From: Chromatiales bacterium
GTDB taxonomy: Bacteria; Pseudomonadota; Gammaproteobacteria; Thiohalospirales; Thiohalospiraceae
Direction: 5' to 3'
Assembly (NCBI GenBank): GCA_026982395.1
Contig: JALSHD010000017.1
Location: 1 to 32,806, forward strand
Length of the DNA stretch: 32,806 nt
Shown: piece after piece, positions 8,529 to 12,700 of the stretch
Position numbering within the stretch: position 1 is the stretch's first letter
How the letters are laid out: each line of letters starts with the position of its first letter
Notes under the pieces: generated by a model
What the model was told of the DNA's origin: nothing
What the model saw: only the letters and a program-made list of their open reading frames with translations
The model's database searches: none
Translations under genes and position numbers: made by a program

Positions 8529-8572
8529 ACCAAGAAATACCAGCTCGAATAGTTGTGACTGAGGAGCATATT

Positions 8573-9916
8573 ATGGCTGTTGATTTTGATAACCGGGTTC
8601 AATTAATACCACAGGATCCAGCCAGTTACCGGAACAACAAACCGATCGGACACACTAACCCGAAAATCTCTCCCGTACCACGGGAAAGCAGCGTCAATCC
8701 TTTCCGGGATGTTAGAAAATTTCTCATTGGCACCGCTCTGGCTCTTGGCAGTACCGCTCTCCTGGCCGAGGAGATGCATTTATTGAGTGGACTGGATGAG
8801 CCACGCCGGCATTTGGAGGAACGTGGTATGGTTGCTGAAGCCATTTTGACCACTGATACCATGTACAACGTTGATGGAGGGATCGAGCGGGATGGCACGC
8901 TTCTCGGAAATCTGGATTTAACCCTTGAGATCGATACCGGAAAGGCCGGGCTCTGGAAAAATGGGACATTTTTAATCTACGGCCTGGGAAATTTCAATAC
9001 CGGCAAACTGCTTACCGAAATTGTTGGTGATTTTCAGGCCACAAGCAACATTGAAACTGATAGGGGGTTCAAGCTATATGAGGCCTGGTATGAACACCGA
9101 TTCGGTGATGATGCCTCCCTGCTGTTTGGCCTGCATGATTTCAACAGTGAGTTTGACGTAGTGGAGTATGGGGGCATATTTCTCCATAGCTCCTTTGGTA
9201 TATCAGCAGATATCTCCCAGAACGGGCCGTCTATTTTTTCTGTTACAGCCCTGGGTGCCCGCCTGAAGGTCTGGCCTACAGAGAGCACCTATATTATGAC
9301 GGCACTCTATGACGGCGTGCCGGGTGATCCGACGAATCCGACCCATACCTCGATCCAGCTTGATAAAGGTGATGGCCTGTTTGGCGCACTGGAGATAGGG
9401 CATACCGTAGGTATTCCAGGCAGTCTGGAGTATTTCAAATATGCCATGGGGACATGGATGCTTACAGCGGAGGTTGAGAACTTTGCCGGCACCATTCAGG
9501 ATGAGAATAGCGGTATCTATTTTATCGGCGAGAAAACCCTCTTCGAAGATGATGCTGGCCGCGGCAGCCTGGGCGCCTTCGTACAGCTTGGTTTTACCCA
9601 CGCCGACCGCAACCAGGTTGATCACTATTGGGGCGCAGGTCTCAACTACACCGGATTGATCCCCTCCCGCTCGGAAGATATCGCCGGGTTGGCCTTGGCC
9701 AACGCCAGAAATGGTTCTAACTTCATACGCTACGCCAGAGACGTAGAAGGGCTGTCCGTGGATCATACGGAAACTGCTATCGAGCTGACCTACATGGCCA
9801 TAGTCCAACCCTGGTTAACCATTCAGCCAGATCTGCAGTATGTCATCAACCCGGGGATGGACAGCTCACTGGATAATGCGCTGGTAGCAGGAGTGCGTGT
9901 TGAAGTGGCATTTTAG
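8573..9916 (+). CDS. OprB-type carbohydrate-selective porin with a long N-terminal leader
   Basis: Outer-membrane beta-barrel protein of 447 residues. The body resembles OprB porins: an early NLDLTLEIDT segment, alternating amphipathic strands, LYEAWYEHRF, a late LQYVINPGMDSS and a final strand ending in Phe (RVEVAF), the usual barrel end signal. A signal peptide is clear (FRDVRKFLIGTALALGST, cleavage probably after ALLA near residue 65) but begins only at about residue 44. The start ATG at 8573 has GAGGAG 6 bases upstream, and no ATG, GTG or TTG occurs in frame between it and the signal peptide, so the long polar leader appears real. It follows the chemoreceptor by 44 bp. The substrate is presumably a sugar or other small solute; that is family inference. 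Confidence 0.85.
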   Translation: MAVDFDNRVQLIPQDPASYRNNKPIGHTNPKISPVPRESSVNPFRDVRKFLIGTALALGSTALLAEEMHLLSGLDEPRRHLEERGMVAEAILTTDTMYNVDGGIERDGTLLGNLDLTLEIDTGKAGLWKNGTFLIYGLGNFNTGKLLTEIVGDFQATSNIETDRGFKLYEAWYEHRFGDDASLLFGLHDFNSEFDVVEYGGIFLHSSFGISADISQNGPSIFSVTALGARLKVWPTESTYIMTALYDGVPGDPTNPTHTSIQLDKGDGLFGALEIGHTVGIPGSLEYFKYAMGTWMLTAEVENFAGTIQDENSGIYFIGEKTLFEDDAGRGSLGAFVQLGFTHADRNQVDHYWGAGLNYTGLIPSRSEDIAGLALANARNGSNFIRYARDVEGLSVDHTETAIELTYMAIVQPWLTIQPDLQYVINPGMDSSLDNALVAGVRVEVAF

Positions 9917-9935: not shown

Positions 9936-10184
9936 TTATTGCCCCCTGTTTTCTGAAGTTTCTTTATGCGTGTGCCTATACCTTAGGCTTTGGAATCTCA
10001 GTTTTCGGAAACGATTGTCTGCATTTTCCTTGGCAGCACCTGAAGCACCGGCAGCGGGACTTTGGGTAACCGGCGTTGGAGCTGTACCAGCCTCAGCTGA
10101 ATCTGCAACGCGCATCTTGCTTGTACTGCAACCAATGGATAGAGCTGCGAACATAATCAAACACATAGTAGTCAACTTTTTCAT
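9936..10184 (-). CDS. Small predicted lipoprotein of unknown function
   Basis: A protein of 82 residues with a standard lipoprotein signal: MKKLTTMCLIMFAALSIGC, lipobox LSIGC with Cys19 as the lipidated residue. After it comes a low-complexity Ala/Pro/Thr/Ser stretch and then a basic C-terminus (RFRKLRFQSLRYRH). No family is recognised. The ATG at 10184 has AGGAGCG about 6 bases upstream. It ends 19 bp from the convergent porin gene. Its upstream leader contains a small hairpin at 10229-10244 (ATCAGC-TATT-GCTGAT). The signal peptide and ribosome binding site support it as real; the odd basic tail could mean a shifted frame near the end, but nothing shows where. Confidence 0.65.
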   Translation of the reverse strand: MKKLTTMCLIMFAALSIGCSTSKMRVADSAEAGTAPTPVTQSPAAGASGAAKENADNRFRKLRFQSLRYRHTHKETSENRGQ

Positions 10185-10384
10185 AATGCTCGCTCCTGAA
10201 TGATATGCCTCTATAAATTATTCAAATAATCAGCTATTGCTGATATTAATTCAACATCAACAGGAGTATATTTGCCGATTTGTAACTATTCGGCTGAAAT
10301 AATCAGAAAAAGTTCTTGACAAGATTTTTCTGAAATTTTGCCAATCTCTGTAGCATGCCCTGCCTATTATTATAGATGATGAAA

Positions 10385-10412
10385 TAAAGCCTGCTGATGA
10401 CTTGTCACCAGC
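10385..10412 (-). terminator. Probable terminator after the CARDB lipoprotein gene
   Basis: On the minus strand GCTGGTGAC-AA-GTCATCAGC forms a 9-bp stem (10393-10412, one G-T pair) followed by AGGCTTTATTT. It lies about 20 bp after the stop at 10434, where a Rho-independent terminator would be expected. The T stretch is interrupted, so strength is uncertain. Confidence 0.45.
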
Positions 10413-10433
10413 ATACAAGCATGCAGAAAGCAA

Positions 10434-11350
10434 CTACTCTGTGGCGCAAACATTATCAATCCAGAGCTCCTGGCCACCAATCCTGAGTCTTTGAACAGGG
10501 CCGGTGAGAACCCCTGTGCCACTCTTCCCGCCGGGAATGGGAGTCGATGATACATTAACGTGGATCCCGGCAATTGGTGATGGAACTGCTATAAGCTCAC
10601 CTGCATAGACCGGCGCAGGTTGTCCGTTGATACTGAAGTTCTCAAAGCCACCCAGATCCAGGTATTGAAAACTCACCTTCGAAACAGGAAAAGCTACACC
10701 GCTGAAATCAAACTCGAGATTAATGTTGTTAGCGCGAATCGTCTGCCCCCCCCGAATGGCTGTGGGGGAATTTCAATGCGTGCCTGGTTGAATGTTCCAC
10801 CTCCACTGACCCATCTGAAATCATGTACAGCCATTTTTATGCCGCTTGAAGATACAATCACTACATCACCCGGAACATTGCCAACAGGACTACCATACTC
10901 TGTGCCGGCAACCGGTGGCGGGCCGAAGTCAAAACATGCTACGCCGTGCGAGACTGGGACAGTTTTGGCGTTATTCTCTTCATTGGATTCCTTCACCATA
11001 TTTTTGGGATCAACTAATACCGAGATCTGATAAACATTCCCTAAGTTTTGATTATCGGGATGCGCAAGTGGTGCAAAATCCGCCTCCAATATAATCAAAC
11101 CCCCTTTACTGAGACCCGGCACACTATGGCTTACTTGTGGCCTGTGGTTTGACGACACCGGGTTCTCGTCTCCATTAAAGTAGACCAAAAAATTTTCCGC
11201 ATCCTTATTCCCAATATTGGCAATCTCGGCTTTTGCCTTTTTATTTGCGTCGTCCCAGGTTACATCCAAATTCTTCACAGTCAGATCTGGCGCACATCCC
11301 GCTAAAGCAAATGCCAAAAGAATGAACACAAGCATGATTAGACTCTTCAT
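10434..11350 (-). pseudogene. CARDB-domain lipoprotein, frameshifted at a G8 tract (broken or phase-variable)
   Basis: A surface or periplasmic lipoprotein interrupted by a one-base shift. The first part (from 11350) has a lipoprotein signal ending ALAGC (Cys19), then a CARDB-like adhesion domain with VDPKNMVKESNEENNAKTV, then CFDFGPPPVAGTEYGSPVG. After PQPFGG, at eight consecutive G on the minus strand (10746-10753), the frame runs into a stop at 10694. With nine (or six) G the reading continues as QTIRANNINLEFDFSG, then FQYLDLGGFENFSINGQP, and ends IDNVCATE at 10434, giving about 305 residues. Both halves fit one coherent extracellular protein. The start has AGGAGAAGG upstream. The shift may be a pseudogene, reversible slippage of the G tract, or a sequencing error; the sequence alone cannot tell. 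Confidence 0.8.
10746..10753. repeat. Homopolymer tract C8/G8 at the frameshift of the CARDB lipoprotein
   Basis: Eight C on the plus strand lie exactly where the two halves of the lipoprotein change frame. Poly-G/C tracts of this length are prone to slippage; one added base restores a 305-residue protein. Confidence 0.9.
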
Positions 11351-12100
11351 AACCTTCTCCTCAATCCTTGGTAATTAAGCATAAAACCAACTATCAACTA
11401 TTTGAGAAAAGCAGAGCTCCAGATACACAGACACAAATATCACCTCGTTACAGATATTCGCCTGAAAGCAGGTGGAACGATAGGATAAAAATGACAACTC
11501 GATTTTTTGCAATCGCTTCTTCCCGAACATAATCCATTCCAGATAGCGCCTTTAACTCATTTAGAGAATAGATGAGAATACACGTGAGTGGTTAGGATTT
11601 TTTTGCAACCCAGCGGTACTTTTTTCAATGCTGTTTGTCCCACTCGGAAAAACAGCGTCCCAATTGGAGATTACAATCAGGGATATAACCCTCTCACTTA
11701 CCTTCAGGAAGTGACAGCAGCGTAGAAAAACCGGAAAGAAGTGATTTTTTAACCCTCAATTGATTACCAAGCAATACAGGGAGCGTGGCAATAGATTAAT
11801 TGTTGTTTATCTGTTTTCCTATTCTGCCCAAGCTGTTTTCCCGACGACCAAATAAATCTCCCGCCTGGTAAAATAGCGCATAGTGCACGTACTATTGCGT
11901 GCATGGCTTGCAGGCAGATGCCACCCCGAAAATAGCGTGTTCACTATAGTCCTTCCCCGTATTAGACTATCGCGGATAGTCTTCCGTAGAGGGGAGTTCC
12001 AGATAAAATGGATGAGGACGTAAAAGCAGGTGTGGGCGTTGGGCGTGGTACAGCGCTCGCAAGAAGACAACTCACCCAACAAACCACTCAACTGGATAAC
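11351..12100. other. Region without a convincing gene before mobA; two hairpins
   Basis: About 750 bp between the divergent lipoprotein gene and mobA, AT-rich in its first half. No open frame resembles a protein. Two hairpins occur close together: TGCACG-TACTATTG-CGTGCA at about 11884-11903, and an 8-bp perfect stem with a 3-base loop, AGACTATC-GCG-GATAGTCT, at about 11963-11983. They are in the likely 5' leader of mobA. They do not match the molybdenum-cofactor riboswitch pattern as I know it. Confidence 0.45.
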
Positions 12101-12700
12101 ATGCCAACAGACTTAGATATCACAGCAATCATCCTGGCCGGAGGTCAGGCAACCCGCATGGGCGGTGAAGACAAGGGGCTGATCCTGCTTGATGGACGCC
12201 CGATGCTGGAACATGTGCTGGAGCGGATCCGTCCACAGGTGGATCAGATTATCATCAATGCCAATCGCAACCAGGAAACCTATGATGATTTTGGTTGGCC
12301 GGTGATCAGTGACAATGACCGTGACTACCGCGGCCCGTTGTCCGGTATCGCCGCGGTGATGCAATTAGCCGCCAGTCGCTATTTTGTCAGTGTGCCGTGC
12401 GATGCCCCGCTACTTCCCAGGGATCTGACCGGACGGCTCCATGATGCGCTGGAAGGTACCAGTGCCGTATCTGCCGTAGCTGACAGCGGGGAGTCGATTC
12501 AACCGGTGTTTGCGCTGTTCAAAAAAAGCGCTGAACCGGCACTCAAGCATTTTATTCAGGCCGGCGAAAGCAAGGTTCGCCTCTGGCACCGTCAGAACAG
12601 CAGCATTGTCGTGGATTTCTCCGATACGCCAGAGGCGTTTCTCAACATCAACACGCCCAAGCAGCTGCACGCCATCGAAGCGCGGTTAAGAAACCGCTGA
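12101..12700 (+). CDS. mobA: Molybdenum cofactor guanylyltransferase MobA
   Basis: Cytoplasmic enzyme that joins GMP from GTP to molybdopterin-Mo to make the bis-MGD cofactor of DMSO-reductase-type enzymes. From the ATG at 12101 it has 199 residues, close to family length. The nucleotide-binding signature AIILAGGQATRMGGEDKGL is at the N-terminus, followed by DGRPMLEHVLERI, then GPLSGIAA and VPCDAPLLP, all typical. An upstream in-frame ATG at 12008 would add 31 residues unlike MobA; neither start has a strong ribosome binding site, so the start is chosen by family length. ispG follows after 44 bp. No other molybdenum gene or molybdoenzyme is in the window. Confidence 0.92.
   Translation: MPTDLDITAIILAGGQATRMGGEDKGLILLDGRPMLEHVLERIRPQVDQIIINANRNQETYDDFGWPVISDNDRDYRGPLSGIAAVMQLAASRYFVSVPCDAPLLPRDLTGRLHDALEGTSAVSAVADSGESIQPVFALFKKSAEPALKHFIQAGESKVRLWHRQNSSIVVDFSDTPEAFLNINTPKQLHAIEARLRNR

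Follow-up and report, generated by a model that had tools for sequence, protein, structure and literature searches.

Slipped-strand switches have been studied mostly in host-associated bacteria. Pathogenic Neisseria possess established poly-G switches (PMC3786947, PMC5320596), with the haemoglobin receptors, e.g., hmbR, as examples (PMC3786947), and Orsi et al. described poly(A) and poly(T) tracts near gene starts as the general inactivating kind in prokaryotes (PMC2831843). In the GeneTack study, phase variation is the class for clusters in which the homologues are frameshifted and a repeat lies close to the site, and a frame change in one genome with intact homologues was attributed to a recent indel or a sequencing error (PMC3711429).

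The split lipoprotein gene found in the window (the whole stretch of DNA that was analysed, 32,806 nucleotides from a Chromatiales bacterium) shares with the Neisseria loci (PMC3786947) a G run that lies within the open frame of an exported-protein gene and in which one base sets the frame. Unlike in those loci, its run is not conserved, comes without known length variants, lies late in the gene and is unenriched. It differs from the tracts of Orsi et al. (PMC2831843) in being poly(G) and in lying two-thirds along the gene. Like the GeneTack singletons (PMC3711429), it is shifted in one genome, has intact homologues elsewhere and shows no conserved shift site; it differs from them in that the break lies within a long homopolymer, making both the slip site and its direction plain. 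Four readings fit the bare sequence, i.e., a young frameshift, a consensus error, a contingency switch and recoding. We tentatively favour, with rather less than even confidence, a young truncating frameshift that arose by slippage in the cell, with no evolved switch. The split gene is an ordinary case and matters little as it stands; together, a G run that arose by chance and a single slip can produce a convincing picture of phase variation.

The features are collected in Table 1. An earlier note on this DNA had described two halves of one CARDB lipoprotein in different frames, switching exactly at eight G, and the open frames and the intact relatives bear this out. The two frames read ...RIEIPPQPFGGG (first) and QTIRANNINLEFDFSG... 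(second); taken alone, the open frames place the switch between about 10775 and 10694, and homology with the relatives pins it to the G8 run, the sole homopolymer of eight or more within the gene, and to a change of one base. Adding one G gives a protein of 305 residues, in agreement with the roughly 305 predicted for nine G, with the run at residue 200. The second frame proved open to its own stop, as claimed, with no second stop or frameshift past the run, and the terminator that had been called plausible corresponds to a terminator-like hairpin, of which a consensus scan lists 4 such sites in the region versus 1.0 in shuffles. The G+C content of the split gene is 48%, versus 54% for the window.

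Table 1. Coordinates of the split gene, its parts and neighbours in the window, and the related loci
Feature	Positions	Strand	Remarks
Split lipoprotein gene, first open frame	10694-11350	-	ATG 11350, stop 10696-10694, 218 aa
Second half, -1 frame: remainder of domain 2, conserved in relatives	10434-10772	-	Open from 10772, stop 10436-10434
G8 run, frame-change site; nine bases in relatives (Gly-[Ser/Thr/Ala]-Gly)	10746-10753	-	
Terminator-like hairpin, about 20 bases past the second stop	10392-10413	-	Consensus scan only
Domain 2	10437-10772	-	About 165 aa
Small lipoprotein-like frame	about 9955-10185	-	MKKLTTMCLIMFAALSIGCSTSK...
OprB-type porin	8555-9916	+	
MobA	12008-12700	+	
L065, L067			Nitrospirota, full length
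L066			Desulfobulbaceae, full length
L068			Bacteroidales, full length
L069			Gammaproteobacteria, full length
L070			Phycisphaerae lipoprotein, CARDB part only

The expected product of the first frame comprises a putative signal peptide, a lipobox-like motif, CARDB and the start of domain 2, followed by an out-of-frame tail. CARDB is matched by its Pfam model at residues 20-130 (E 1.5e-12, 48 bits against a cut-off of 22.7); the remainder of the 305-residue protein is not covered by any model of Pfam or NCBIfam. A lipobox-like L-A-G-C stands at residues 16-19, its G-C invariant across six sequences, and the Pfam lipoprotein motif LPAM_1 scores 9.6 bits, below its cut-off of 20. Of the description "surface lipoprotein" in the earlier note, the first word is presumptive and the second probable. 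In a structure model of L067 (mean pLDDT 80), N-terminal beta strands that correspond to CARDB are followed by another part that is all beta. The site of the run, three codons long, maps between strands 190-194 and 207-210 (L067 numbering), i.e., to a loop in domain 2, so that according to the model the split would halve domain 2 and leave CARDB whole.

Among 369 genomes of the class, one relative of the gene turned up, identical with the L069 gene, and scanning a single genome for each species gave six loci, L065-L070. The five full-length ones (L065-L069) share the lipobox-like motif, CARDB and the second domain with the window gene at 50-72% identity over the full length; L070 lacks the second domain. 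All five are unbroken, in contrast to the window gene, and all have nine bases at the site (GGC ACG GGC, GGT TCC GGG, GGT GCA GGG, GGA TCA GGA and GGT TCA GGG), so the window is one base short. None of the five carries a run of even six G there, and the run most likely arose in the lineage of the window only, judging from these sequences. Conservation does not drop past the run: amino-acid identity to L067 is 75% in the part that follows it and 73% in CARDB, with 0.142 and 0.171 non-synonymous differences per site, respectively, and identity to L065 is 71% and 69%, synonymous sites being near saturation in both parts. This indicates that the break is either very young or a consensus error. Together with a run that is not kept in the relatives, is not part of any enrichment and lies late in the gene, the freshness of both halves leads us to favour these two readings, which the earlier note had listed jointly as an alternative (recent pseudogene or homopolymer error) and for which the intact nine-base relatives and the lack of decay after the break speak.

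The course of events under the favoured young frameshift would be as follows. A two-domain lipoprotein gene (CARDB plus an all-beta domain), present in this species alone among the congeners searched, would have had the codons of a Gly-x-Gly loop drift to a run of nine G, and polymerase slippage would then have removed one base and with it the latter half of domain 2. Such a loss would be very recent, i.e., a young disabling or truncating mutation, and the expected product would be a lipoprotein of 218 residues with CARDB intact and domain 2 halved, which would presumably lack the function of domain 2. The frame change falls on a run that covers 8 of the 917 bases of the gene, so this coincidence is not chance, though the run itself is ordinary.

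That the base was lost in the cell and not in sequencing is our supposition, since an error that drops one base of the run from the consensus yields the identical sequence. The cell may thus possess an intact nine-G gene from which sequencing or assembly dropped one base, which we consider possible, although less probable than a loss in the cell. Exactly one base is missing, within the only homopolymer of such length in the gene, both halves are fully conserved, and the genome is a draft (2.72 Mb, 193 contigs, 97% complete). Moreover, a single-genome frameshift with intact relatives matches the expectation of PMC3711429 that frameshift singletons confirmed by BLASTp are sequencing errors rather than genuine indels, which counts against a loss in the cell. 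On the other hand, at least 29 other runs of 8-10 G or C, some of them of length 10, stand in unbroken coding frames, which suggests that errors at such runs are uncommon and that this assembly does not generally lose bases there.

The genome contains 59 distinct runs of 8-10 G (44 of them eight, 9 nine and 6 ten bases long). A codon-usage test assigned the same frame on both sides to 29 of them and flagged one frame change (L037). The same test placed the run of the split gene itself in its "one side" class, so some breaks in genes whose codon usage is unusual escape it. When 14 runs were read by eye (L037 and 13 that were unclear), L037 alone was clearly broken. The few broken frames among the genic runs argue against a widespread error problem and equally against a genome-wide switch system. 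L037 itself (G000:C116:2722-2729) shows a frame change exactly at a G8 in an IS3-like transposase, a name given from reading the sequence; a second full copy of this transposase is absent from the assembly.

The earlier note had proposed that the gene may toggle on and off and is here in the off state. In the form considered here, slipped-strand mispairing at the G run would act as a contingency switch that turns the second domain of the presumed surface lipoprotein on and off. The break exactly at the G8 in a probable lipoprotein gene, both halves of which are intact, and the Neisseria precedents cited above are consistent with such a switch, and the locus has the in-frame homopolymer whose length sets the frame that is expected of a contingency gene. 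However, contingency tracts would be expected to be kept in orthologues, over-represented and concentrated in surface genes, and here the site in the five full-length relatives is without such a tract. The window holds 2 G8 runs versus 2.37 in shuffles, and the genome holds 80 overlapping eight-G matches against roughly 200 expected (scaled from the window shuffles), so that G runs are, if anything, avoided in the genome rather than enriched; in the seven congeners, the count of such matches per genome ranges from 49 to 166. The runs of 8-10 G lie mostly in intact frames, including those of some housekeeping-type genes, with a resemblance to proB and gspH rather than to surface genes. Furthermore, with the run so late in the gene, the "off" product would be long and keep its putative signal peptide, lipobox-like motif and CARDB. 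The G8/G9 variants for which sister genomes were to be compared did not appear, as the five relatives have no G run and no orthologue turned up in the seven draft congeners, and further inactivating mutations in relatives, named in that note as the sign of a dead gene, were likewise absent from the five. Toggling is thus without support from the run counts, the relatives or the position of the run, and we regard a switch as unlikely. Its fuller version, in which an uncultured environmental gammaproteobacterium would toggle an unnamed beta domain while CARDB is kept in both states, we consider more doubtful still. Should reads show mixed lengths, this would make the gene a contingency locus of an environmental lineage, away from the host-associated bacteria.

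Recoding, by which slippage of the ribosome or RNA polymerase at the G8 would yield some full-length protein, is very improbable. The shift needed is -1, which equals one extra G in the mRNA, G GGG GGC could serve as a slip site, and both halves are conserved; the relatives, however, need no frame change, the slip site is not conserved, and the RNA structure is not beyond chance (z -0.33 at the run and +1.47 downstream). Two separate adjoining genes, the second half being a protein of its own, are the least credible reading and were rejected: the Phycisphaerae locus L070 does show that the domains can occur apart, but the frame change falls midway through domain 2 and not between the domains, the second frame has neither a signal peptide of its own nor a conserved start, and the full-length relatives read straight through.

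The split lipoprotein gene lies between the genes for an OprB-type porin and MobA, among chromosomal housekeeping genes. It was unmatched in the seven congeneric species and four other genomes of the family, all of them drafts, in 44 further genomes of the class and in the viral contigs searched. MobA and IspG are adjacent in the six congeners read, as in the window, and past MobA no OprB or lipoprotein gene occurs in those congeners whose contig extends there. None of the tested window genes to the left of MobA is present at the congener locus, save for a weak MCP-like match in L083, and the contig of the genome closest by DNA (G005, 94%) ends at this point. The neighbour genes of the relatives have nothing in common with the window, and among the relatives synteny exists only between L065 and L067. 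As the relatives belong to several phyla, the gene likely arrived by horizontal transfer. Downstream of the split gene, on the same strand, lies a small lipoprotein-like frame.

The model shows domain 2 as all beta; the domain is without a Pfam match and is present in lipoproteins of several phyla. In a fold comparison, solved structures matched the whole length only poorly, with TM-scores not exceeding 0.25 of the query, so domain 2 is placed in no fold family, and the sole solved relative in the profile search, the cell surface protein 2l0d, aligned over the CARDB part. By itself, the domain 2 part matches a frame of 373 residues without CARDB in another genome of the class (G604), which marks it as a movable module. 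Domain 2 is a possible candidate for a new domain family, and such a family, without a Pfam match and scattered over phyla, may merit its own name. Conversely, L070:1124-1531 is about 70% identical to the CARDB part of the window gene and ends cleanly before domain 2.

One further G8 run of the genome (L008; G000:C21:31344-31351) encodes glycines ahead of a C-terminal hydrophobic segment and a basic end (GGGGSLNPLYVVLLSMLFLLRMAGRSKRK...), an arrangement that resembles a GlyGly-CTERM sorting signal.
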